Of a stretch of 64,000 nt of DNA, positions 6,141 through 28,304 are shown one piece after another. The notes below the pieces were generated by a model that saw nothing but the letters and a program-made list of their open reading frames with translations, did not search any database and had not been told where the DNA came from. The stretch is from Paenibacillus sonchi (GTDB taxonomy: Bacteria > Bacillota > Bacilli > Paenibacillales > Paenibacillaceae). Positions within the stretch are counted from its first letter, which is position 1; every line of letters starts with the position of its first letter. The stretch is taken from assembly GCF_016772475.1 (NCBI RefSeq), contig NZ_CP068595.1, positions 310,001-374,000 of the forward strand, read 5' to 3'. A program made the translations under genes and the position numbers.

Positions 6141-7445
6141 TTGCAACGCGAAATTCAAGTTAACGAGAAACTCCCTTGGGGCCCGGGCTTTCTGCTGAGT
6201 CTGCAGCATTTGTTCGCCATGTTCGGCAGCACGGTGCTTGTTCCTAACCTGTTCGGGGTAGACCCCGGTATGATCCTGTTGATGAACGGTATCGGCACAT
6301 TGCTCTATATCCTGATCTGCCGCGGCAAAATTCCGGCATATCTCGGTTCAAGCTTTGCCTTTATCTCTCCGGTGCTAGGCGTGCTGGAAAAGCATCAGGG
6401 TGATCATCAGCATGGATATTCGCTTGCTCTGGGCGCTTTTATCGTAACTGGCGTGATCTTCATCCTTGTCGCATTGATTGTCCGTTATGCCGGAACCGGC
6501 TGGATTGATGTTGTTTTTCCTCCGGCGGTTATGGGCGCTATCGTAGCGACCATCGGACTGGAGCTGGTGCCGGTTGCAGCCCGCATGTCGGGGCTCATTG
6601 CTCCTGAAGGTGCAACCGACTGGACGCCGGATGGCAAAGCGATCACCCTCTCCATGGTAACACTGGGCGTAACTGTTATTGGTGCAGTGCTCTTCCGCGG
6701 CTTTCCCAAAATCATTCATATCCTCATCGGTATCGTAACCGGTTATGTTCTGGCTTATATTATGCAAGTGGTAAACACAGATGCGATTTCCAGCGCGCAC
6801 TTCTTTTCCCATCCCACTATTATCACTCCTTCCTTCGACTGGCAGGTTATCTTCACCATTATTCCGGTATCGCTTGTTGTCATTGTTGAACATATCGGCC
6901 ATTTGCTTGTTACGAGCAACATTGTCGGCAAAGACCTGACCAAGGAGCCTGGACTTGACCGCTCGCTGATGGGCAACGGGATTTCCACTATTCTTTCCGG
7001 ATTTTTCGGTTCCACACCCAATACCACCTATGGTGAAAATATCGGCGTTATGGCGCTGACCAAAGTATATTCGGTCTATGTCATTGGCGGTGCGGCAGTA
7101 ATTGCGATCCTGCTCTCGTTCTCGGGAACTTTCTCCTCGATTATAGCCAATATTCCCCAGCCGGTTATGGGCGGTGTGTCGCTCCTGCTGTTCGGTGTAA
7201 TCGCTGCATCCGGTCTGCGCATCTTTGTCGAGCAGAAGGTTGATTTCTCCAAGGCGACCAACATGATCCTGGCTACTTTGGTTCTGGTGGTCGGCATCAG
7301 CGGCATCTCGCTTACCATTGGCGGTGTTCAGCTTAAAGGTATGGCGCTGGCGACCATTGTCGGCATGGTTCTGTCCCTGCTCTTCAAATTAATCGAGGTT
7401 CTCGGCTTGTCCAACGAGCAGGACAGTGAAAAATCTGCACATTAA
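6141..7445 (+). CDS. uraA: Uracil permease, NCS2 family
   Basis: Proton-coupled uracil importer of the inner membrane, 434 aa, very similar throughout to E. coli UraA. Diagnostic segments are LSLQHLFAMFGSTVLVP, KIPAYLGSSFAFISPVL and FFGSTPNTTYGENIGVMA, plus some 12-14 hydrophobic segments. The start is TTG at 6141 with a purine-rich GAAAGAGAAG upstream. The preceding 6063-6097 region has a weak GC stem followed by six Ts (GGCGGTTTTTT), which could be an attenuator; PyrR control would be typical for this gene but is not demonstrated. It is transcribed divergently from relA and monocistronic, with a strong terminator after it. Confidence 0.95.
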   Translation: MQREIQVNEKLPWGPGFLLSLQHLFAMFGSTVLVPNLFGVDPGMILLMNGIGTLLYILICRGKIPAYLGSSFAFISPVLGVLEKHQGDHQHGYSLALGAFIVTGVIFILVALIVRYAGTGWIDVVFPPAVMGAIVATIGLELVPVAARMSGLIAPEGATDWTPDGKAITLSMVTLGVTVIGAVLFRGFPKIIHILIGIVTGYVLAYIMQVVNTDAISSAHFFSHPTIITPSFDWQVIFTIIPVSLVVIVEHIGHLLVTSNIVGKDLTKEPGLDRSLMGNGISTILSGFFGSTPNTTYGENIGVMALTKVYSVYVIGGAAVIAILLSFSGTFSSIIANIPQPVMGGVSLLLFGVIAASGLRIFVEQKVDFSKATNMILATLVLVVGISGISLTIGGVQLKGMALATIVGMVLSLLFKLIEVLGLSNEQDSEKSAH

Positions 7446-16969: not shown

Positions 16970-17191
16970 ATTTTCTTCGCTCTCCTTCCATTGGTCACCC
17001 GCCGCCATCGTACCGGGCAAAATAATGTACCCCTATTCTGGCCCCTCAACCAAGGGAACATTCGGAAGCGGGCTTATTAATTAATGGTAAAAGGGCTTTA
17101 AGCCCTTTTCGTGTACTATTGGGGCAAGCCCCCCCATACAATAGTTAGTAATCATACCTTGTGTACTAAAAACTTTTTAGGAGGTCGTACC

Positions 17192-17584
17192 ATGTATTTA
17201 ATCCGGCGTCTATTCTCGTGGAGAATATCTAGTCCAGTGTTATCAGGTTTATGCCGCGCTTTTATGTGGATGCTGCTGGGGGCGATGGTTCTCTCCCTTT
17301 TACTCTGGGGAAGCGGACTGGAAGAACAGGACCTTACTATGTACACTTATATCGTACACGGTATTGCTGCCGCCTTCGGCGGATTAACGGCAGGACGGAG
17401 AGCCCCCGGCAAAGGCTGGTATCATGGGGGAATTACGGGAGCGTTCTACGGTATTATTGTCCTGCTGATTGGCTTTCTGGCGCTGGATAGTGCTCCTGCC
17501 GGCATCGATTGCTTGTGGGTTCTGGCAGCTGCGGGCATCGCTGCATTCGGCGGAATATTCGGGGTTAATTTACATAAATCCTAA
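17192..17584 (+). CDS. TIGR04086 family membrane protein (YrzE-like)
   Basis: 130 aa with four hydrophobic segments and Gly-rich turns (GGLTAGRRAPGKGWYHGG). The position next to the DUF421 gene matches B. subtilis yrzE, which lies beside yajC. Function unknown. ATG 17192 has a strong TTTAGGAGGT. An upstream hairpin with a T run (about 17088-17110) could be the end of the divergent transcript or an attenuator. Here the expected neighbour yajC is about 8 kb away because PAP2 and the peptide cluster intervene. Confidence 0.85.
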   Translation: MYLIRRLFSWRISSPVLSGLCRAFMWMLLGAMVLSLLLWGSGLEEQDLTMYTYIVHGIAAAFGGLTAGRRAPGKGWYHGGITGAFYGIIVLLIGFLALDSAPAGIDCLWVLAAAGIAAFGGIFGVNLHKS

Positions 17585-17674
17585 AATTTCAATATAATCG
17601 AATCCTGCTCCTGAAAATATGGTAAACTGGATGCATCTGACTTTACATGCGGGATCAAGGAGGCTTCGATTGTT

Positions 17675-18514
17675 TTGCTTTACCAATCTATGAACTATGT
17701 AGTGCTGTACACCGTTGTAATTGTAGCTGTATTGATGTGGCTCGGTGCCCGTCGCAATCCTCTGCTGGCTTTTGTGGAGATCGGAAAGGAACTTATCCAC
17801 TCTTATAAATTTCTGCTGCTCGTAGCAGGAATGTTCGGTGTGCTGGCCGTAAATAAATACGAACTGCAAATTGAGAAAAAGCTTCATATTACTTCCGATT
17901 ACACGTCTTTTGTTTTTGGGCTTGAAGGTCATTTTGTCAGGGACCTGCAGCATTTGTTCTTTGCTCCCTGGCTGACGCCAATCATTGTATTCTTCTACAT
18001 TTTTATGCTTCAAGCCGTGCTGGCTGCTTCTCTGGGTGTCTACCTGCTTGATAAGAACCGTGTCATGCTCTACGCAACCTGCTATGCGATTATCATCAAC
18101 TATGCCATTGCCATTCCGTTTTATTTGTATTTCCCGGTGAATGAAGTATGGTCCTATGTACCGGCAGGCGTCCGGTTTACCATGCTGGATGTCTTCCCGA
18201 GATTTGAGCAGGAGTACAGGCCGCTCTCAGGTCTGGACAATTGCTTCCCGAGCCTTCACACCGCAATCTCTGTAACCACCGCCCTGCTCGCCTTCCGCTC
18301 CGGCAACCGCCGCTGGATGGCGATCACCACTGTGTCTGCAGTCATTATAGTGTTCGGCATCTTCTATCTCGGCATTCACTGGCTGACTGACATGCTTGGC
18401 GGCACCCTGCTGGCCGTGCTGTCAACCACAGTTGCCGTTCAACTCGCCAAGCTGACGCTGCGCAGCAGCGAGGGACGGCTGACCATTCCCAGCCGGGCAA
18501 CGGATACACGCTGA
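17675..18514 (+). CDS. PAP2-family membrane phosphatase
   Basis: 279 aa, six or so hydrophobic segments. C-terminal phosphatase motifs: CFPSLHTAISVTTALL (PSxHT form of motif 2, about residues 190-205) and YLGIHWLTDMLGG (motif 3, about 229-241). This Aur1/Ipt1-like subgroup dephosphorylates or transfers lipid head groups; the substrate is not readable. The start is TTG 17675, with AAGGAGG 11 bases upstream. It is in line with the TIGR04086 gene and ends at a strong terminator shared with the converging peptide cluster. Confidence 0.88.
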   Translation: MLYQSMNYVVLYTVVIVAVLMWLGARRNPLLAFVEIGKELIHSYKFLLLVAGMFGVLAVNKYELQIEKKLHITSDYTSFVFGLEGHFVRDLQHLFFAPWLTPIIVFFYIFMLQAVLAASLGVYLLDKNRVMLYATCYAIIINYAIAIPFYLYFPVNEVWSYVPAGVRFTMLDVFPRFEQEYRPLSGLDNCFPSLHTAISVTTALLAFRSGNRRWMAITTVSAVIIVFGIFYLGIHWLTDMLGGTLLAVLSTTVAVQLAKLTLRSSEGRLTIPSRATDTR

Positions 18515-18523
18515 TTACTTTAT

Positions 18524-18568
18524 AGAAAAAGGCCGGGAGCCCATACCATGGGTTCCCGGCCTTTTTCC
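18524..18568. terminator. Strong bidirectional terminator
   Basis: Long stem AAAAAGGCCGGGA...TCCCGGCCTTTTT with an inner CCCAT/ATGGG extension. It separates the + strand PAP2 gene from the end of the minus-strand peptide cluster, whose last gene stops inside the flank at 18570. Confidence 0.92.
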
Positions 18569-18569
18569 T

Positions 18570-19169
18570 TCAACTTGTTAATACTTTTTGAATGGATTTA
18601 TAAGTGGTTCTAACGTCTTTGCTTAATGACTTTTGATCTGCATATACCGAAACGCCCATAATTTCCTCTTGTAGTTTATAATCATAAACAAAATGTTTTT
18701 TATGCGAATCATTTCTTTCCAACAGATGAATTGTAATATCAAACTGGTAATGTTCAACGTCTTCTGAATCAGAGGCTTCACTTGCAAAAATAATTACATC
18801 ACATTTGTATTTTTGGTGAATGAATCCGAAAAACGCTGAGCAGCCGATACCTTCAGATAAGTATTCGAACCCATCAAAGATATCGGGAGAATGATCCGAA
18901 ACAATCACTGAGTAGAATTTATCCTTATGGAAAAAATGATTAAGGATAATTGAGAATTCCTTTCTTAAGTAACCTTTAATTAATATGACAGGAACAGGAG
19001 GATCAACCGTTTTCATTTTTTCCAGCAACTTATGGATATAAGCTCCATAGAACTCACTGCTCCATATCCTAACTTTTGGATCGTTCAAGTTCCCTGGTGA
19101 GAGCATTCTTATTTCATGAACACCATCTTTTACGGCAGATATGCTGTATTCCTTTTTTTCATCATACAA
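18570..19169 (-). CDS. Unrecognised 199-aa protein, last gene of the peptide cluster
   Basis: No family recognised. Predicted soluble, acidic, mixed alpha/beta; a core such as PPVPVILIKGYLRKEFSII and CDVIIFASEASDSEDVEHY suggests a Rossmann-like or hydrolase-like fold, but no catalytic motif is clear. The frame opens with TTG 19169, overlapping the protease gene by 40 bases. No good ribosome binding site is visible there, so translation is probably coupled to the protease; an internal ATG (MLSPGNL, codon 22) is an alternative. AT-rich like the rest of the cluster. Co-transcription suggests a role in maturation, immunity or regulation of the peptide. Confidence 0.75.
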   Translation of the reverse strand: MYDEKKEYSISAVKDGVHEIRMLSPGNLNDPKVRIWSSEFYGAYIHKLLEKMKTVDPPVPVILIKGYLRKEFSIILNHFFHKDKFYSVIVSDHSPDIFDGFEYLSEGIGCSAFFGFIHQKYKCDVIIFASEASDSEDVEHYQFDITIHLLERNDSHKKHFVYDYKLQEEIMGVSVYADQKSLSKDVRTTYKSIQKVLTS

Positions 19170-19912
19170 TCTGTACTTATAATTAAGTAAGGGTTATAGC
19201 TGCTTTCATTTGAAATTGAATGAGTATAAAGTTCTTTTTTGATATCTTCTACAGTAAAAAAGGGATTCTCAGTGAGTATCCCATGAACTCTGCTGGTTAT
19301 AAAAGGAGCAGCGAAACTGTTGGAACTATTCGTCTCAAAAACTTCACCTTGTTCTGATGGAATAGAATGTTTACCGCTTGTAATCACATCTACTCCATCA
19401 TAAGGATAAGGATCAAAAACATATGGATTGGAGTTTAGGTCATCAGAACTTTTTACTCCAATTACATTGGTTAAACTGGCCGGCAAAGTAAAGAGACCGT
19501 TATTATTAGAGGCGGCTACCATAATAAGGCCCTGTTCCGCCACTTCATTTACACAATCCCGAATGGCAGCAAAATCCAAAAAATAGGTTGACCCTAAGCT
19601 GAGATTGACGATTTTGATATGGTTAGCCAGACACCAATATAATGCTGTGATCAATTGTTTGGTTGTGCCTTTGCGGTTATTTTTTTCATTTAAGATTTTA
19701 ACGCTGGAGAGTCTGGCGGCGGGTGCATATTTTTTAATGATGCCCGCACAAACCGTACCGTGGCTTTTTAGATGCTTATCATAATGCTTCCGATCGATAA
19801 TTTTTAAATTACCTTTTATTTCTTTATTATATTTCAGAGTGCCAATCTGAAACGGGTATTCATTTACTCCGTCATCAATGAGGCAGACATCTATCGGATT
19901 GTGCCCTTTCAT
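19130..19912 (-). CDS. Subtilisin-like (S8) serine protease of the peptide cluster
   Basis: 260 aa, no signal peptide, so probably cytoplasmic. The catalytic triad is in order: Asp13 in LIDDGV, His51 in SHGTVCAGI, Ser199 in SSNSFAAPF, with the oxyanion Asn136 in AASNNNG. Compact: no prodomain is seen before the Asp motif. Inferred role is removing the leader from the modified precursor, because the exporter in this cluster lacks a peptidase domain. It follows the acyl-carrier-related gene by 10 bases. S8 proteases in related Clostridium/Bacillus peptide clusters are known from memory; the substrate here is inferred. Confidence 0.9.
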   Translation of the reverse strand: MKGHNPIDVCLIDDGVNEYPFQIGTLKYNKEIKGNLKIIDRKHYDKHLKSHGTVCAGIIKKYAPAARLSSVKILNEKNNRKGTTKQLITALYWCLANHIKIVNLSLGSTYFLDFAAIRDCVNEVAEQGLIMVAASNNNGLFTLPASLTNVIGVKSSDDLNSNPYVFDPYPYDGVDVITSGKHSIPSEQGEVFETNSSNSFAAPFITSRVHGILTENPFFTVEDIKKELYTHSISNESSYNPYLIISTDCMMKKRNTAYLP

Positions 19913-19922
19913 TCCACTACCA

Positions 19923-20228
19923 CTACCTAGTAGTTTTATTTTTCATTTCCCGAAGAATAATTGCAGAAATATTGGATATGGTGTTGAATCCGCCCGAAAC
20001 AATATCTTTTTCCGGAATAGAAATGCCGAAATTTTCTTCAATTTCAATATATAATTTAAGCAGATGCCTTGCTTTCAAATTCACGTCCCGTTCCAGAAAA
20101 TTCCGGTTATATTTGTCTTGCCCCCATAAATCGGTATCAATCAGCAGTTTGCTCTTTAATATCTTATCCAGCGACTCTGCGATTTCTTTAACAGTGATTT
20201 CCTGGCTTATAGTCCCCAAGTGTACCAT
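19923..20228 (-). CDS. Acyl-carrier-related protein of a peptide maturation system
   Basis: 101 aa. The C-terminal half follows the acyl carrier protein pattern: HLLKLYIEIEENFGISIPE, then a helix ending ISNISAIILREM. The Asp-Ser-Leu phosphopantetheine site expected before the second helix is replaced by VNLKAR, with no Ser there. This fits my memory of TIGR04069 (peptide maturation system acyl carrier-related protein), found with CcpM-type radical SAM enzymes. A scaffold or recognition role is inferred rather than carrier chemistry. It has GGAAAGGGATGG before the start codon region. Confidence 0.8.
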   Translation of the reverse strand: MVHLGTISQEITVKEIAESLDKILKSKLLIDTDLWGQDKYNRNFLERDVNLKARHLLKLYIEIEENFGISIPEKDIVSGGFNTISNISAIILREMKNKTTR

Positions 20229-20267
20229 CCCTTTCCTGGCGGTTTGCGATGTCTAATAATTAAGCTT

Positions 20268-21407
20268 CTAGAAATTGACTGCCATTTCAGCTTCCGATAA
20301 TTTGTCTACAATTAAATCGGCAATTTTCGCCGTGTCTCCTTTATCCAGAACATTAAATACAGGTACTGAAGATACAACACTGCATTCCTCAATGCTCTTT
20401 TGCATAAAATCTTGATTAAGCGTTAATGTGTTTACAGAACTTGGCTTAGAGTTCGTCATTTCGACCCAATCAATCTGCCTGTTGGTTATATTCAAGGCAT
20501 CAATATCCAAGCCGAATTTATATTTGATGGAATTTATAATTCCATCCAAATATTCTGCTGTATACTTCTCGTGAAACAGGCTTACTACTACAGCATCGGG
20601 AACAACCGCCTGAAAAATTTCATATGCCGTAATTCCAAAGCCATTGGTGATTTTGTTGTTATAGCGCATAAAGCCGCCAGGCACGGCTACGATAATTAAG
20701 TCAGGTTCCTCAGTGGATTCAATCTGTTTGATGTACCGGTTATAGCACAAGATTTTATCTGATTCACTTATTAATTCTTTCATGAACCCCGGAAACGAAT
20801 GAAACCCCAAAAATTCACAATAGGATCTGGAGCCAACCACACTCACTTTATAACCCATATTTTCAAAAGTGGATTTTAAATCCAATTGCAATTGAAACTT
20901 ATGAGTGTTCTCGGCTATCCCAACGACTGCAAGGATGGGGGTAGTACAATCTATAATTTCTTTTTGTCCAAACACCAGATCATTTAAGAAATCTGCATGA
21001 CCCAGATGATTGTCCCCATAATTTATAAAATAGCTGCCCTTCTTCCCGCACTTTTCTTGTACTTCTTCTAATTTCTCATTCAATGGAACTAGAGTAATAA
21101 TATTTTTCCCTGCTTCAATTGCACTCAAGAGTTTGGGATAGATGTTCTTTTCCAGCGTATATGAATTGTCGGCTTCAGCAAAGATTACAGTATCAATTCC
21201 ACCCAAAATCTGTTCAAATTCCTGATTCACAGTAATGCCAAGGAATCCGCCGCCATCAGCATAGCTGGCATCCTTGCCGCATAACCCCCATCCGGGTAAA
21301 GAGGAAAGCTGGATATCGCTATAATGGTCAACAAAACCTTTGTCTCTTAACAAGGGAGTAAAATGGGAGTCGTAAGGGTAAATTAATACACTTTCTTTAT
21401 TCAACAT
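20268..21407 (-). CDS. TIGR04066-like peptide maturation system protein
   Basis: 379 aa, soluble. From memory it resembles the TIGR04066 'peptide maturation system protein' that accompanies CcpM and the CLI_3235 precursor family. Visible blocks: VLIYPYDSHFTPLL and SLPGWGLCGKDASY at the N-terminus; ILAVVGIAENTHKFQLQLDL followed by YKVSVVGSRSYCEFLGFHS near the middle, which looks like a P-loop NTPase/DUF1611 fold whose Walker A has lost its GKT; and a C-terminal IIVAVPGGFMRYNN. The biochemical role is unknown. The start is ATG 21407 because GGAGGG lies six bases upstream; the TTG 12 bases earlier is inside that site. It begins 16 bases after the radical SAM gene. Confidence 0.85.
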   Translation of the reverse strand: MLNKESVLIYPYDSHFTPLLRDKGFVDHYSDIQLSSLPGWGLCGKDASYADGGGFLGITVNQEFEQILGGIDTVIFAEADNSYTLEKNIYPKLLSAIEAGKNIITLVPLNEKLEEVQEKCGKKGSYFINYGDNHLGHADFLNDLVFGQKEIIDCTTPILAVVGIAENTHKFQLQLDLKSTFENMGYKVSVVGSRSYCEFLGFHSFPGFMKELISESDKILCYNRYIKQIESTEEPDLIIVAVPGGFMRYNNKITNGFGITAYEIFQAVVPDAVVVSLFHEKYTAEYLDGIINSIKYKFGLDIDALNITNRQIDWVEMTNSKPSSVNTLTLNQDFMQKSIEECSVVSSVPVFNVLDKGDTAKIADLIVDKLSEAEMAVNF

Positions 21408-21423
21408 ACTTCCCTCCAAATCA

Positions 21424-22851
21424 TTATCCTGTAATCTTCTGAACCATTTCTTTTTTCAATCCGCATTCTTTAAGGGTGCATACGTCCTTCAGCATTTCAT
21501 CAAAATTGTAGCGGACATCCCGGCAGGCTTTTTGTTTTGCTTCCTTGCTCAGTTGATTTCCATCATCGGACAATGAAGCACATACTCTGCAGTTCCGGAA
21601 TGCATAGCACTCCTTACAGCTTTCTTCCGTAAGTTGTCCTACATTCAATAATTTTTCTATTTTGTCAAAAAAGAACCCCTCTTCAATATTGCCGATTCTC
21701 ATAATATCCGATGTCTCACTAACCCTTTCACATGGATAAAAATGGGCATCCGTACTCATAAACAACCGGATTTGTCCCGGTACGCAAGGTCCGGAATGGT
21801 GATCCTGTTTGGCTAATGGGGCAATATTCCGGTGCGAGTTGCTGATATACTCAAAATGCTCCCGGTAGGCGGCTCTGATTAATTGTGAATTGTTTGCTTT
21901 GGAAACCTTTCCCAATACAAACAACAAATATTTAAATTTGCTGTATTCCCATTCCCCTACAAAATTTTCGCTGAATTGAACGCGGTCATTCCGGTAATTA
22001 TTGGATACAAAACTTCCGATCACCGCTGATTCATTGAAAAATTCTTCTTCACTGGCGATGAAATCATCCAGACAATTAAATTGTGCTGTTGGGTCCATAA
22101 CCATAGAAAAGGAGAGATTTTTTTTGATGTCCGGGTACTTTTCCACAATTCTTTTGATGTTATCATACACAGCGTTGAAGGTTCCGCAACCGGTTGAGGC
22201 AAACGTACGGTGCTTATCATGAATTTCTTGAGGCCCATCCATACTGACGGTAATTCTCAAATTGTAGCCCAGTAATCTCTTCACATTAGCTTCATTGAGC
22301 AGGCTGCCGTTCGTGGTCAGACTAAAAGAAACGTTTTTCCCTTCTGCCGCTTTTATCGCGTAGTCCATACATTGAATAATCAGGTTCATCTCCAGCAGCG
22401 GCTCGCCGCCATAAAAACTGATATCGATGTCCTTGGCATCCTTAGAATGCTCGATCAGAAAATCTATTCCCTTTTGGGCAGTGGCAAAATCCATTCGTTT
22501 ATTGCTATGTACCCGATTTACATAAGACCCGGAATACACACAATAATTGCATCTGAAATTACAATTTTGGGTGACTTGAAGAATGATTTTTTTTAAATTA
22601 TAGCCTAAAAGCTCATCAAGCATTTTTCCATTGCTATGCTTTATTTCTTCTACGCGGTTGTTTGACAGATATCCTTGATCCTTTAATTTTTGGATAACCG
22701 GATGCCCGCTTGAACGTATTGCGTCAGGATCATTGATAATTTGATAAGTATCCTCATCGACATTGATAATTTTATTTTTATTTACATCAAAAAAATAATA
22801 CTTATCCATATTTTCGAACGAATAGATCAACGGATTTTCTTTGGTCAACAA
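21424..22851 (-). CDS. ccpM: Radical SAM peptide maturase, CcpM-like
   Basis: 475 aa. The radical SAM cluster site CNFRCNYC (Cys97, Cys101, Cys104) is followed by GGEPLL (149-154), LTTNGSLL and VSMDGP, the standard peptide-maturase core. The C-terminal part carries SPASM-type Cys: Cys356, Cys374, Cys412, Cys415, Cys421, Cys424, Cys443, Cys458 and Cys463, expected to hold auxiliary Fe-S clusters. Residues 1-85 form a leader-binding-like domain. It probably crosslinks Cys of the precursor (thioether formation by analogy with related maturases; inferred). The start is TTG 22851 with AAAGGAGA eight bases upstream. It follows the precursor after a hairpin. Confidence 0.9.
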   Translation of the reverse strand: MLTKENPLIYSFENMDKYYFFDVNKNKIINVDEDTYQIINDPDAIRSSGHPVIQKLKDQGYLSNNRVEEIKHSNGKMLDELLGYNLKKIILQVTQNCNFRCNYCVYSGSYVNRVHSNKRMDFATAQKGIDFLIEHSKDAKDIDISFYGGEPLLEMNLIIQCMDYAIKAAEGKNVSFSLTTNGSLLNEANVKRLLGYNLRITVSMDGPQEIHDKHRTFASTGCGTFNAVYDNIKRIVEKYPDIKKNLSFSMVMDPTAQFNCLDDFIASEEEFFNESAVIGSFVSNNYRNDRVQFSENFVGEWEYSKFKYLLFVLGKVSKANNSQLIRAAYREHFEYISNSHRNIAPLAKQDHHSGPCVPGQIRLFMSTDAHFYPCERVSETSDIMRIGNIEEGFFFDKIEKLLNVGQLTEESCKECYAFRNCRVCASLSDDGNQLSKEAKQKACRDVRYNFDEMLKDVCTLKECGLKKEMVQKITG

Positions 22852-22899
22852 TGAACTGTCTCCTTTACCGTTTTGTAGTCATGCTTCTGCTTAAGGAAT

Positions 22900-22948
22900 A
22901 AAAAGACTAGGGCTCTGCTGACAGGTAGCTTTGTCTTTAGAACCCTAG
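22900..22948 (-). terminator. Attenuator hairpin between precursor and maturase
   Basis: On the minus strand CTAGGGTTCT pairs with AGAGCCCTAG (9 of 10 positions) across a 22-nt loop, followed by TCTTTTT. It lies 9 bases after the precursor stop and about 50 before the maturase start. It probably stops most transcripts after the precursor, so peptide outnumbers enzyme; inferred. Confidence 0.8.
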
Positions 22949-22957
22949 CATTTTCGG

Positions 22958-23152
22958 TTAACCTCTCACTTGAGCGGTTGCAGTCGGAGTGTAGTTTTGC
23001 GATCCGCTATCCGCGCTAGTATTGCTAACATGCAAGAAATCAGGACCCCAGCAGCTGCAAGTGGCGCAATAACATGCACAAGAAAGATGGCAATCGGCAT
23101 AAGCCTCAACAGTATGCATTTGCGAAAAATTCTTTTTATTTAATTTTCTCAT
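22958..23152 (-). CDS. Cys-rich RiPP precursor, CLI_3235 family-like
   Basis: 64 aa. Leader-like residues 1-20 are basic then acidic (MRKLNKKNF...VEAYAD). The core has six Cys at 21, 25, 27, 29, 32 and 34, spaced C-x3-C-x-C-x-C-x2-C-x-C and followed by WGPD. A Ser/Thr-rich tail without Cys (about residues 43-64, ending ATAQVRG) follows. ATG 23152 has GGAGG eight bases upstream, so translation is well supported. The position between the exporter and the radical SAM gene, and resemblance from memory to TIGR04065, identify it as the substrate. The tail is longer than I expect for the family. Confidence 0.88.
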   Translation of the reverse strand: MRKLNKKNFSQMHTVEAYADCHLSCACYCATCSCWGPDFLHVSNTSADSGSQNYTPTATAQVRG

Positions 23153-23221
23153 TCATTTCGCCTCCCTTCGTATGTAATAGATTATATAAATTCCAGAGTG
23201 ACAGGCACTCCGAAAAGTATA

Positions 23222-24982
23222 TCAACTAATCAGTTCTCTGCATTCCAGTTCGCTTTCATATAACTTTTTATATGTAAAATTGTTATTCAGAAGATTTCTA
23301 TGGCTTCCTTGGCCTACCAGTTTGCCGGCATCAATAACCAGAATTTCATCTGAATCAATAATGCTTGACAGCCTGTGGGCAATCACGACAACGGTATGGT
23401 CATGAGAAATGGAACTTATTAATTCCTTGACCAGCTGCTGGGTTTCATTATCCAATGATGAGGTTGCTTCATCGAATAAAATAATTTTGGATTTTTTCAA
23501 CATCGCTCTTGCGATGGCTATCCTTTGTTTTTGGCCGCCTGACAGATTCGCGCCATTCTCCTCAATGACTGTTTTATATCCATGCGGAAGACTCATGATG
23601 TAATCATGAATTTTTATCTGTTTGCAAATGGCTATCATTTCTTCCTCAGTTGCCTCTTGGTTCGCGATCAGCATATTATCAGCAAATGTTGCATTAAATA
23701 AATATGGAGCTTGGTGCACTACCGATATATGCTGGCGCAGTGTTTCTTCATTAAAATGATTAATATCTATTCCATCAATCAGAATGGCTCCTGTATCAGC
23801 CTCATAAAAATGGAGCAGCAGATTAAAAATTGTAGTTTTCCCGCCGCCGCTGCTGCCTACAATTGCTGTTGTATTATTCTTTGCGATGGTAAAGCTCAGG
23901 TTGTCAACAACCCGCAAATCGTCTCCGTACCCAAAGGAAATATTACAAAACTTAATTTCCCCCTCAATATGCTGCATTTCCATATCCCCAAACTTTTCTC
24001 TCTTATATCCAAATTCATCCAGCAAGTTGAATATTCTTTCAAGCGAAGTCAGCGCCTTCTGGATGTTGCTGCTGATTTGGGTAATGTTCATTAATGAACC
24101 CGTCAGCTGGCTGGAGTAAGAGGTAAATGCAATAAAGTATTCAATGTTCAGCTGTCCTTTATATATCAGAAACCCTGCTATAGCCATAACACTAAGCTGT
24201 GAGAGAAAAGAAGTGAACTGTGATAATGACCGGGCCACAGTACTTATAATATTAATATTTATATTTTTTCCTTTAAGCAGGATGGCCAGATCCAGAAATT
24301 GATTAATTTTTATCTTCTTGATGCCCAAACTCTTTATCTCTCTGATCCCGGTTATGGACTGCTGTAGATTACTGAAATAGCTATCGTTTAACTTAGCCAG
24401 TTCTTCACTTTGCTTCCTTATTTTTTTCCCGGAGAAGGTGAAAATAAAAAATGTAACCGGAAAGCTTATTAGAATCACCAAAGATAGTGGAATACTAATT
24501 TGAAAAACAACAATACATATGATGGCCACTCGAAGAATGTCGATTGCAGTATTAATCAATTGGTTGGTGAGGATGCTGGCTACAGTCGCAGTATCTCCCT
24601 GCAAACGGGATATAAATTCCCCCACCTTCATTTGGTCATAAGCCTTTACAGGAAGTTCAATGATCTTTTGAAACATATCTCTTTTCAAGTCATAAATAAT
24701 ATTTTCACTTAGTGAGGAAAATAAATAGGATTGAAAGAAACTTAGAATGGTTACAAAAAGCTCTGTTATAAACAGATAAATTAACATTACACTGAGCTTT
24801 TCAAATTCCTTAGAGAACAATAACGCTATGACCTTACCTAATATCAATGGCTCAATAATTTGCAGAATCAGACAAAACACAATACAAAAAAAAGTAGTAA
24901 TCACACGCAATTTGTAAGGAAAGAGATACATCAAACATCTTTTCAGCAAACCGATATCCTTTTTATTAACTATGGATTTCAT
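23222..24982 (-). CDS. ABC exporter (fused permease-ATPase) of the peptide cluster
   Basis: 586 aa half-transporter: six N-terminal membrane segments (about residues 20-310), then an ATPase domain with VGSSGGGKTT (Walker A), LSGGQKQRIAIARAM (signature), IILFDEATSSLD (Walker B) and VVIAHRLSSI (H-loop). No C39 peptidase domain precedes the membrane part, so leader cleavage must be done by another enzyme, most simply the cluster's S8 protease. First gene of the operon; the precursor start lies 69 bases after its stop. A sigma-A-like promoter is at 25070-25098. Exports the mature peptide; self-immunity is possible. Confidence 0.93.
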   Translation of the reverse strand: MKSIVNKKDIGLLKRCLMYLFPYKLRVITTFFCIVFCLILQIIEPLILGKVIALLFSKEFEKLSVMLIYLFITELFVTILSFFQSYLFSSLSENIIYDLKRDMFQKIIELPVKAYDQMKVGEFISRLQGDTATVASILTNQLINTAIDILRVAIICIVVFQISIPLSLVILISFPVTFFIFTFSGKKIRKQSEELAKLNDSYFSNLQQSITGIREIKSLGIKKIKINQFLDLAILLKGKNININIISTVARSLSQFTSFLSQLSVMAIAGFLIYKGQLNIEYFIAFTSYSSQLTGSLMNITQISSNIQKALTSLERIFNLLDEFGYKREKFGDMEMQHIEGEIKFCNISFGYGDDLRVVDNLSFTIAKNNTTAIVGSSGGGKTTIFNLLLHFYEADTGAILIDGIDINHFNEETLRQHISVVHQAPYLFNATFADNMLIANQEATEEEMIAICKQIKIHDYIMSLPHGYKTVIEENGANLSGGQKQRIAIARAMLKKSKIILFDEATSSLDNETQQLVKELISSISHDHTVVVIAHRLSSIIDSDEILVIDAGKLVGQGSHRNLLNNNFTYKKLYESELECRELIS

Positions 24983-25069
24983 AAGCCATACCTCTGATGG
25001 TAATATTTAATTAATAAATTATTTATTTCATGTTTTTACACTTTGTAATAACTTTCACTTGCAAAGCCA

Positions 25070-25098
25070 ATTCTACATCTTTCGATATAAATTGTAAA
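25070..25098 (-). promoter_or_regulatory. Predicted promoter of the peptide cluster
   Basis: On the minus strand TTTACA (25093-25098), a 17-base spacer and TAGAAT (25070-25075), about 90 bases upstream of the exporter start, in very AT-rich DNA. This is a good housekeeping-type match; no operator was recognised. Confidence 0.65.
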
Positions 25099-25099
25099 C

Positions 25100-25550
25100 A
25101 TATTTTTACTATATTTCAATTTTTAGTATATTTATTTATGACAGCTAAACTATAATTGTTGAACATTTAAATTTATTCCTCATTTATCCAATTAATCAAT
25201 ATACTATTGTGTTTTTATTTTTGCAAATATGTAAAATAGGCCAACCCGAAGCTTCGGGCTGACATGAGTACCAGAACAAAATCACCCTGGCGGGTGAATA
25301 ACAACACGGGGCTTACGGCCGCAGAGATTCCCCACCGCTCCAAAATCAACGGGTGCATGCTGAAGACGGATCGCCCCATTCCTTCGTGATCGATCCGCAG
25401 CCGTTACGGACAGGAAAGCCTTTATTGAGAGAAGATTCGGCTATTCCGCAGGACTTCGGACTGAGATGCCTTTATTTGTTCCTTTTCCCTTTATTCCAGG
25501 CTCCATCGAACGATATAACGACTCCTGAGTCCGTAACTGCTGAAAAAGTA
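25100..25550. other. Intergenic region with base-composition switch, no gene supported
   Basis: About 25100-25230 is extremely AT-rich and belongs with the peptide cluster. From about 25238 composition returns to the genomic level. The perfect palindrome CCCGAAGCTTCGGG (25245-25258) and further GC-rich inverted segments follow. Short ORFs on both strands have no recognisable sequence and no ribosome binding site. It may hold the edge of the inserted cluster or a structured RNA. Confidence 0.4.
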
Positions 25551-25648
25551 AGATTTTTGGCAAAATAAGGGCTCCTCTGTCCGCTTCAGCCTGCGGATGG
25601 AGCCCAATCCTTCTGCATCGCTTATATCCTCTGAGGCTTCCAAGAACT
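25551..25648. repeat. 98-bp dispersed repeat, copy B
   Basis: Second copy of the element at 1614-1711 (about 92% identical), again intergenic and in the same orientation. It carries the GGGCTCC/GGAGCCC inverted repeat. Confidence 0.85.
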
Positions 25649-25698
25649 TTAATCATACTTTTACACACATGCGGAAGTAATCATAGTTTCCTATACCA

Positions 25699-25742
25699 CG
25701 AAAAAAGCACCGTCTCTCTTGTGAGAAACGGCGCTTTTTATG
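25699..25742 (-). terminator. Terminator of the queA-tgt-yajC operon
   Basis: On the minus strand AAGCGCCGTTTCTC pairs with GAGACGGTGCTT, followed by TTTTTT. It lies 19 bases after the yajC stop. Confidence 0.9.
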
Positions 25743-25760
25743 TAATGCTGTACTAAACGG

Positions 25761-26075
25761 CTACTCTTTATCTTCTACATCCACAACCGAATGGCTGATG
25801 GAACCCCGGTCAAAGGTCAGTTTGGTCACATCGTTTACCCGCAGGACTACGATGTCATCGGAAATTTCCATGATCGTCCCGTGAAGGCCTCCAATGGTCA
25901 CTACCTTATCGCCTTTTTTCAGAGCTTTCAGCATTGCGTTGCGCGTTTTGGTCTTCTTCTGCTGCGGACGGATGAGCAGGAAGTAGAACACCACAAACAT
26001 CAGCACAAACGGGCCTACAAGACCCAGGATGCTTCCGCCGCTCCCTGCTGTTGCTGCATATTGAAACTGTAACAT
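25761..26075 (-). CDS. yajC: Preprotein translocase subunit YajC
   Basis: 104 aa single-span membrane protein associated with SecDF. Residues about 15-37 form the membrane segment (VGPFVLMFVVFYFLLIRPQ), followed by the family's RPQQKKTK and GDKVVTIGGLHGTIMEI. The start is ATG 26075 with GGGGGAGA upstream; the open frame extends 13 codons further but lacks a site there. It follows tgt by 42 bases, as in Bacillus. Confidence 0.95.
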   Translation of the reverse strand: MLQFQYAATAGSGGSILGLVGPFVLMFVVFYFLLIRPQQKKTKTRNAMLKALKKGDKVVTIGGLHGTIMEISDDIVVLRVNDVTKLTFDRGSISHSVVDVEDKE

Positions 26076-26117
26076 AATTCTCCCCCTTTCAAAAGACAAT
26101 GAAACACTGCCCATTAC

Positions 26118-27275
<1,158 letters not shown>

Positions 27276-28304
27276 TTAATAGATAAACATTGCATCGCCG
27301 AAGCTGAAAAAGCGGTAACGCTGCTGAATCGCGGCTTCATAGGCGGCAAGTATATTCTCCCGTCCGGCCAAAGCGCTCACCAGCATCACCAGTGTAGACT
27401 TGGGCAGATGAAAATTGGTAATCAGTGCGTTTACAACGGTAAATGTATAGCCCGGGTAAATAAAAATATCCGTCCAGCCGCTGCATTCTTGAATCGGACC
27501 GCCTCCGGCCTGTCTGCCGGCCGTTTCCAGTGTCCGGCAGGACGTTGTGCCCACGGCTATGATCCGTCCGCCCCGGGCTCTGGCAGCATTGAGCATATCC
27601 GCTGTCTCCTGGGACAAGACGAAATACTCGGCATGCATCACATGCTCTTCCACCTTCTCTACTGACATAGGACGGAAGGTGCCTAGTCCGACATGAAGCG
27701 TAATATAGGCAATCGTTACACCTTTTGCCTTGATCTGCTCCAGCAGCTCCCGGGTGAAATGCAGGCCTGCGGTCGGTGCGGCCGCCGAGCCTTCATGCTT
27801 GGCATACACCGTCTGGTAACGCTCGCGGTCATCCAGCGTCTCCTTGATATACGGCGGAAGCGGCATGCTTCCCAATCTGTCCAGAATTTCCTGAAATATT
27901 CCTGTATAGATGAAGCGGAGTGTCCGCCCGCCCATGTCAGCCTCGTCTTCAATCACTGCCTTGAGCTCCTCGCTGAAGATAATCACAGCTCCGGTCTTCA
28001 GCTTCTTGCCGGGCTTCACCAGCGCTTCCCAGCGGTCTTCGCCCAGACTCTTCAGCAGCAGGACCTCCGCCTTCGCACCGGTGTCTTCCTTGACGCCGAA
28101 GAGCCGGGCGGGAATCACCCGTGTATCATTCAGAACCAGCGTATCACCTGGCTGAAATTGCTCCAGTATATCCGTAAAATGCCGGTGCTCCAGTTGGCCA
28201 TTCTCCTTGTTCACGAGCAGCAGCCGCGATGCACTGCGGTCGGACAGCGGAGTCTGGGCGATGAGCTCCTCCGGCAAATGGAAGTCATAATCATCTACAT
28301 TCAT
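27276..28304 (-). CDS. queA: S-adenosylmethionine:tRNA ribosyltransferase-isomerase
   Basis: Transfers and isomerises the ribosyl group of SAM onto preQ1 in tRNA to form epoxyqueuosine. 342 aa, full length. Typical blocks: [20 protein letters not shown] at the start, [28 protein letters not shown]-type [13 protein letters not shown], and [18 protein letters not shown]. It directly precedes tgt. The ribosome binding site is weak (AAGGAATG), and the start lies 9 bases after the SpoIID-like gene's stop, so coupling is possible. Confidence 0.97.

Follow-up and report, generated by a model that had tools for sequence, protein, structure and literature searches.

A CLI_3235/CcpM-class peptide cluster in Paenibacillus sonchi with helper proteins that resemble degenerate members of known enzyme families

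We analysed a 64,000-nucleotide window of Paenibacillus sonchi contig NZ_CP068595.1 (310,001–374,000), in which all positions below are counted, and studied the cluster for a ribosomally synthesized and post-translationally modified peptide (RiPP) that lies on its minus strand between 24982 and 18570. Judged by its profile matches, the cluster is a genuine member of the known, little-understood CLI_3235/CcpM class, and we consider it probable that it makes an antibacterial, thioether-bridged, cysteine-rich peptide by the steps set out below. An earlier reading of the sequence alone had named no structurally solved product for this class. This holds for the linkages of SacP23 from P. polymyxa #23, which were left open by its authors; however, a product of the class has already been expressed and is antibacterial (PMC10731318). 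Thus the class has one antibacterial member, yet no solved product was found in the open-access literature searched. The class itself is already known and the clues concerning its helper proteins are new. The most useful results are a revised model of the genes and an account of where these helpers belong in evolution; they resemble degenerate kin of known enzymes. Labels such as L040 denote homologous loci in other genomes that were compared with the window cluster. The minus-strand open reading frames (ORFs), read in order from 24982 down to 18570, encode 586, 64, 475, 383, 101, 260 and 199 amino acids, and every one except the last is supported by a library hidden Markov model (HMM; NCBIfam or Pfam).

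23222–24982, minus: ABC exporter with membrane and ATPase domains, 586 aa (PF00664, PF00005)
22958–23152, minus: precursor peptide, CLI_3235 family, 64 aa (TIGR04065, 32.2 bits, cut-off 26, E 8.9e-8)
23051–23092, minus: cysteine block of the precursor, C-x3-C-x-C-x-C-x2-C-x-C (read from the sequence; gaps 3, 1, 1, 2, 1)
21424–22851, minus: CcpM radical SAM/SPASM maturase, 475 aa (TIGR04068, 539.3 bits, cut-off 500)
20268–21419, minus: TIGR04066 protein with a degraded P-loop, 383 aa (TIGR04066, 356.8 bits, cut-off 200)
19923–20228, minus: acyl-carrier-related protein, 101 aa (TIGR04069, 69.3 bits, cut-off 70, E 2.9e-19)
19130–19912, minus: subtilase (S8) catalytic domain, candidate leader protease, 260 aa (PF00082, 70.2 bits)
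18570–19169, minus: C-terminal domain of the subtilase (199-aa ORF), distantly TIGR04066-like; a single ORF with S8 in relatives
19153–19159, minus: run of A at the frame change of the protease (DNA alignment with L040, L041 and L042)

The sequence-only reading had assigned the genes to the CLI_3235/CcpM maturation systems and named four models for comparison. TIGR04065, TIGR04066 and TIGR04068 all score over their cut-offs and TIGR04069 falls 0.7 bit short, so the assignment is upheld. Identity of the radical SAM protein as an anaerobic sulfatase maturase (anSME) was rejected, since TIGR03942 gives 81.7 bits, far below its cut-off of 349.45. The cysteines of the CX3CX2C motif (C97, C101 and C104) are conserved in 33 of 33 proteins, the window enzyme and 32 relatives, as are seven further cysteines (C356, C374, C412, C415, C421, C424 and C443), which we take to be the SPASM ligands of auxiliary clusters. 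Other maturase classes share such auxiliary-cluster cysteines; thus, they are not specific to sactipeptide enzymes.

The precursor is composed of a leader (approximately residues 1–20), a six-cysteine block (21–34) and a cysteine-free tail (35–64). It is under purifying selection and is a real gene rather than a chance ORF: synonymous and nonsynonymous changes number 3 and 0 against L040, 5 and 1 against L041, and 7 and 1 against L042, and against the more distant L039 they number 21.7 and 30.3 (dN/dS 0.20). The single altered residue among the precursors of close relatives falls in the leader, so the conservation extends to the cysteine-free tail. When 33 relative loci were scanned for small cysteine-dense ORFs near a radical SAM gene, 24 had a similar small ORF with a leader of the M-x-x-L-x-[KR]-[KR] type. 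Six loci (L044, L045, L099, L101, L102 and L104) have another leader, of the 'NKNASQQ' type, and L056 has yet another. No cysteine-dense ORF passed the scan in L055 or L098; L055, which is only a 6-kb contig, holds a three-cysteine ORF below the threshold, and the scan of L098 was centred on a different radical SAM gene, its CcpM gene being a fragment. We compared the layout of 17 precursors, those of the window and of 16 of the 24 loci, after dropping near-identical copies. In all of them a block of 4–7 cysteines, with gaps of 1–4 residues, starts at residue 18–24 and is followed by a tail of 18–32 residues, which is free of cysteine in 16; the exception is L097, whose tail carries a single cysteine in terminal position. 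Together, Ser, Thr, Asn, Gly, Ala and Gln account for 62% of all tail residues (289 of 467), versus 32% of the pooled radical SAM, TIGR04066 and ABC proteins. As a side observation, a CcpM subgroup (L044:7213–7356, L045, L099:7247–7387, L101, L102 and L104:9457–9612) has no relative of the window subtilase; the ORFs that are probably its precursors do not have the usual leader, and they carry FTEKRH...L after the cysteine block.

The corrected gene model concerns the protease. The 199-aa ORF has no NCBIfam or Pfam match, and had first been taken for an orphan protein. A phmmer search with the S8 ORF returned 28 relatives, four of which are the long fusions of L105–L108 described below. Among the 24 others, 23 carry the C-terminal extension within the same ORF as S8; the exception, L036, comes from a genome that is 72% complete and in 630 contigs, and has two ORFs for the protease. 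A separate orphan family was therefore rejected, and the 199-aa ORF is the C-terminal domain of the protease, out of frame here. Of the seven genes on one strand proposed earlier, the ORFs and their common minus strand stand, and the last two correspond to a single ORF in relatives. Alignment of four intact relatives shows that D13, H51, N137 (the oxyanion Asn) and S199 are invariant, and the same motifs occur in the window ORF. The ORF begins only about a dozen residues ahead of the catalytic Asp. A signal peptide could not fit into this stretch, as would be expected of a leader protease that acts in the cytoplasm. Among NCBIfam models the subtilase scores highest with QhpE (NF049966), at 84.9 bits and below the cut-off of 165, so we liken the two in function and do not claim membership. 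Two loci have an extra gene between the carrier-like and protease genes, and none was seen there in the window: L087:6453–7235 (minus strand) has no match over cut-off and is perhaps a counterpart of 23sacG, and L035:10707–11342 (plus strand) matches DUF6033 at 43.7 bits.

To place the protease tail, profiles were built from clean sets, with TIGR04066 proteins kept out of the protease profile. Aligned with the TIGR04066 profile by hhalign, the tail gave 93.9% over 157 columns (E 1.6e-7 for the single pair), and a control alignment with the subtilase half gave 0.3%. Searching with the tail profile by hmmsearch, 18 of 34 TIGR04066 proteins passed, the best at 1.4e-12, E-values that apply to tiny sets. 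By this comparison the tail is distantly related to TIGR04066. In a family-wide search, eight ORFs of 587–628 aa matched TIGR04066 weakly, and the four that were retrieved join a subtilase to a full-length domain of this kind.

L105:7463–9223, minus: subtilase–DUF1611/TIGR04066-like fusion
L106:7607–9427, minus: subtilase–DUF1611/TIGR04066-like fusion
L107:7022–8851, plus: subtilase–DUF1611/TIGR04066-like fusion
L108:7145–8905, plus: subtilase–DUF1611/TIGR04066-like fusion

The TIGR04066-like domain of the two fusions scanned is full-length, matching end to end at 97.6 and 94.4 bits (cut-off 200), and hhalign relates the fusion domain to TIGR04066 at 99.8%. Both also exceed the cut-off of PF07755, the C-terminal P-loop domain of DUF1611 (30.1 and 37.5 bits versus 25). 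TIGR04066 proteins themselves match the two DUF1611 models, PF07755 and PF17396, mostly weakly: DUF1611_C in 4 of 23 (best 1.8e-4) and DUF1611_N in one (0.11). The window protein has no Pfam match, PF07755 included. Two tandem proteins of the window genome bridge the families, scoring 33.6 and 37.2 bits with DUF1611_C and 25.8 and 31.8 bits with TIGR04066. Structure 2g0t, which we take to be a DUF1611 protein and whose entry reads conserved hypothetical protein, has a weak colinear match across the P-loop region of the L106 domain (E 0.0089); against the TIGR04066 profile it reaches E 0.54, and the best hit there is an SRP54 (0.052). The P-loop GTSxxQGKFT is intact in the four subtilase fusions and degraded in the window protein and in nearly all aligned TIGR04066 proteins, that of L038 being nearest to intact. 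These alignments make TIGR04066 a relative of the DUF1611 P-loop superfamily that, with its degraded P-loop, has probably lost NTP binding.

The tandem pair (L142:7849–10151, plus strand; contig C1 of the window genome, about 3.874 Mb) lies near glycosyltransferase-like, FrhB-like and, by eye, EPSP-synthase-like genes, in an undescribed pathway. L106 also carries ketosynthases, an enoyl reductase, a phosphopantetheinyl transferase and a BtrH_N protein, and L105 a PqqD-like protein and two radical SAM proteins; the L105–L108 loci are possibly acylated-peptide pathways. DgcN, a member of the DUF1611 superfamily, is an N-acetyltransferase. The DgcN–DgcA pathway is mentioned in PMC10845958.

The carrier-like protein shows a similar loss. 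The sequence-only reading had called it acyl-carrier-related; the serine that would hold phosphopantetheine is replaced by Ala. Two relatives scanned with TIGR04069 lie on either side of the cut-off (L087, 89.4 bits; L039, 63.1 bits). Among 31 aligned carriers of CcpM loci, a count that leaves out two candidates (L045 and L102), the serine column holds Pro in 14, Ala in 11, Val in 4, Gly in 1 and Ser in 1. In the loci with intact fusions (L105–L108) the serine is kept in five of five carriers and is preceded by Asp or Glu. Judged by this column, the 'carrier' of CcpM loci is a pseudo-carrier that could not bear an acyl group in the ordinary manner. L091, whose precursor equals the printed SacP23 precursor plus a final Tyr, has Pro at this position; if 23SacF is alike, the activity of the SacP23 cluster makes it unlikely that acyl carriage of the ordinary kind is required. 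The link between TIGR04066 and DUF1611, the related domain of the protease and the serine-less carrier together turn helper names into testable parts.

We propose that a cytoplasmic maturation complex most likely yields a thioether-bridged peptide. First, the precursor would bind CcpM through its leader, and CcpM would join several sulphurs of the cysteine block to other residues. The simplest targets would be backbone carbons of the cysteine-free tail rich in Ser, Thr, Asn, Gly and Ala, as in sactipeptide hairpins. The TIGR04066 protein, the pseudo-carrier and the C-terminal TIGR04066-like domain of the protease, with their lost motifs, may come together around the substrate and link its modification to its cleavage, while performing neither carrier nor NTP chemistry themselves. 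The cytoplasmic subtilase would then take off the leader, by analogy with QhpE after cross-linking by QhpD, and the ABC exporter would secrete the product, which by analogy with SacP23 is very probably antibacterial. The exporter is MsbA-like, with none over its own cut-off among the best 25 of 189 NCBIfam families, and no C39 peptidase match was found among its 18 Pfam rows. A more speculative idea, to which we give little credence, is that the TIGR04066 protein, the carrier-like protein and the tail of the protease all go back to a single ancestral machine, in which a subtilase–DUF1611-type P-loop acyltransferase fusion cut the peptide and acylated its new N-terminus from the carrier. CcpM systems would keep this machine as a scaffold or in an altered catalytic form, and its intact version in the sister loci L105–L108 may even now produce ribosomal peptides with an acylated N-terminus.

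Several points weigh against the maturation pathway proposed first. First, the tail–TIGR04066 link is weak in a plain hmmsearch with the TIGR04066 profile, in which only 7 of 23 tails pass inclusion. Secondly, the protease is not universal, since an S8 relative is absent from 9 of 33 loci (L044, L045, L054, L055, L056, L099, L101, L102 and L104). Thirdly, the frame change at 19153–19159 could be the sign of a dying cluster copy. At the run of A the window lacks one base relative to L040 and L041, which have a longer run, and to L042, which has their length in an impure run. With its tail out of frame in this strain, processing may be impaired unless the break is an assembly error or is bridged by slippage. 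A non-functional cluster with a broken protease gene is possible, and on balance we doubt it. The catalytic motifs of the subtilase all precede the break, and L036, in its fragmented genome, likewise has two ORFs. Moreover, the C-terminal domain compared with L040 (dS 0.127, dN 0.022, dN/dS 0.18) is still under purifying selection, so the break either arose recently, stems from misassembly or is overcome by slippage.

The remaining points concern bond chemistry. CcpM scores alike against the sactipeptide enzyme RumMC (185.7 bits) and the ranthipeptide enzyme PapB (168.8 bits), which leaves the chemistry undecided, and no demonstrated bond was found for any class member in the open-access literature searched. 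These near-equal scores would suit an enzyme that makes ranthipeptide-type thioethers to β- or γ-carbons, or some other radical modification within the cysteine block, in place of sactionine bonds. The ranthipeptide pattern is of the C-x3-D type, and it hardly fits here, because the gaps between cysteines are 1–4 residues and no recurring acceptor is seen between them by eye; we therefore consider such bonds unlikely. Purified SacP23 has m/z 3404 and resists Edman degradation (PMC10731318). We fitted this mass, within 1.5 Da, to stretches of at least 25 residues starting at residues 9–32 and containing all seven cysteines or the C-terminus. Residues 12–44, 16–48 and 20–51, all with seven cysteines, fit with 0–1, 1–2 and 2–3 losses of 2 H, respectively; thus, the mass is no proof of cross-links.

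The blocked N-terminus of SacP23 (PMC10731318) could be explained differently, if the TIGR04066 and carrier-like proteins acylate the peptide N-terminus. The kinship of TIGR04066 with the DUF1611 superfamily, to which the N-acetyltransferase DgcN belongs, is consistent with this, as are the sister loci in which an intact P-loop fusion occurs alongside a true carrier, one of them near fatty-acid-like genes and a phosphopantetheinyl transferase. However, the P-loop is degraded in nearly all aligned TIGR04066 proteins, the carrier serine is absent from 30 of 31 aligned carriers, and modified bacteriocins are often reported to fail Edman degradation (PMC10731318), so N-acylation seems improbable. 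An immunity function of TIGR04066, as proposed for 23SacE, is equally hard to favour. The protein is so named in PMC10731318, and the B. subtilis host survived SacP23 although its base strain is sensitive; however, the same source gives 23SacE without transmembrane helices, and self-protection could come from the exporter. The published idea is the poorer fit, given that the protease itself contains a domain akin to TIGR04066; this kinship and that with DUF1611 point to maturation, and the placement gives grounds to doubt the immunity assignment. Finally, metal binding by the cysteine block, as in a metallothionein or metallophore and without thioethers, would match CxC in 17 of 17 and CxxC in 11 of 17 compared precursors, but is very improbable given that the radical SAM partner keeps all ten cluster-type cysteines and that the homologue SacP23 is secreted and antibacterial (PMC10731318).

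Two hairpins bear on transcription of the cluster.

23215–23191, minus: terminator-like hairpin between the exporter and precursor genes (terminator scan)
18526–18566, no strand assigned: palindromic hairpin, with a run of T on either strand (read from the sequence; part listed by the terminator scan)

Expression from one promoter, as proposed from the sequence alone, was not borne out: promoter-like sites over 17000–26500 are at chance (25 found, 26.7 expected). Over 24950–25780 they are enriched (7 versus 2.8 in shuffles, both strands). The chance level over the whole cluster and the hairpin between exporter and precursor leave a single transcript unproven. This hairpin is mostly kept in L040, L041 and L042 and not in L039, and it may determine how much precursor is made for a given amount of exporter; the second hairpin is likely a bidirectional terminator that closes the cluster. 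An Rfam search of 17500–27500 gave no match at E 0.1. The cluster is flanked by a PAP2 phosphatase-like gene and by yajC–tgt. The PAP2 gene was matched in 89 of 100 genomes of the genus, and among the best 30 of these 89 loci yajC lies within 0.5 kb of PAP2 in 25 (L114–L138); of the remaining five, L109–L112 have no yajC in reach and L113 stops at a contig end. In the wider loci of L040, L041 and L042 the cluster sits between PAP2 and yajC, and in L038 it is on the opposite side of PAP2. Since PAP2 and yajC adjoin in the 25 loci and the cluster is differently placed in L038, the most likely history is a gain of the cluster at this site.

TIGR04068 is over cut-off in 10 of 100 genus genomes and in 3 of 398 phylum genomes, and TIGR04066 in 27 of 394 family genomes, the window genome being included each time. 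Matches at E of 1e-60 or lower occur in 27 of the 100 genus genomes, 12 at 478 bits or more and 15 at no more than 316 bits; a match of the weaker kind in the window genome proved, when checked, to be RumMC-like. The window genome is near P. jilunlii, with 97% identity of the radical SAM protein. It also holds a second peptide maturase (L046:7330–8904, minus strand; contig C1, about 0.487 Mb), which is RumMC-like at 471.6 bits (cut-off 720) and adjoins a 70-aa cysteine-containing ORF (7058–7270) and an ABC exporter.

Related systems have been described. A CLI_3235 precursor is present in P. polymyxa Kp10 (PMC7343975), and PMC11594732 merely cites SacP23. Roseburia intestinalis L1-82 has a five-gene sactipeptide-like cluster that shares a TIGR04068 radical SAM protein, TIGR04066, TIGR04069, a subtilase and an ABC transporter with the window; no structural or immunity gene was obvious to the authors there (PMC4573289). 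In the maturation of quinohemoprotein amine dehydrogenase (QHNDH), QhpE cuts a 28-residue leader off the QhpC peptide in the cytoplasm after thioether cross-linking by a radical SAM enzyme (PMC7876137). QhpD, QhpE and QhpF thus resemble the window system in radical SAM cross-linking, a cytoplasmic subtilisin-like leader protease and ABC export; however, the QHNDH product is an enzyme subunit, and the window subtilase is under the QhpE cut-off. The precursor, with its cysteine block and polar tail, resembles hairpin sactipeptides such as thurincin H, in which Cys4, Cys7, Cys10 and Cys13 are bonded to Ser28, Thr25, Thr22 and Asn19, respectively (PMC8172795), a likeness that bears on chemistry by inference.

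The closest comparison is with SacP23, whose eight-gene cluster encodes a precursor, an ECF sigma factor, an ABC protein, TIGR04068, TIGR04066 and TIGR04069 proteins, 23sacG and a subtilase, and whose secreted activity, when expressed in B. subtilis, inhibits several Gram-positive bacteria (PMC10731318). Neither the ECF sigma gene nor 23sacG was seen by eye among the window ORFs around the cluster. SacP23 has seven cysteines with single-residue gaps, whereas the window precursor has six at the wider spacing listed above, and loci with SacP23-like precursors (L087 and L089–L093) have an uninterrupted protease ORF, unlike the window. In summary, despite these differences, both clusters combine a precursor of the same family, with a CxC block and a cysteine-free polar tail, with an ABC exporter, TIGR04068, TIGR04066 and TIGR04069 proteins and a subtilase.

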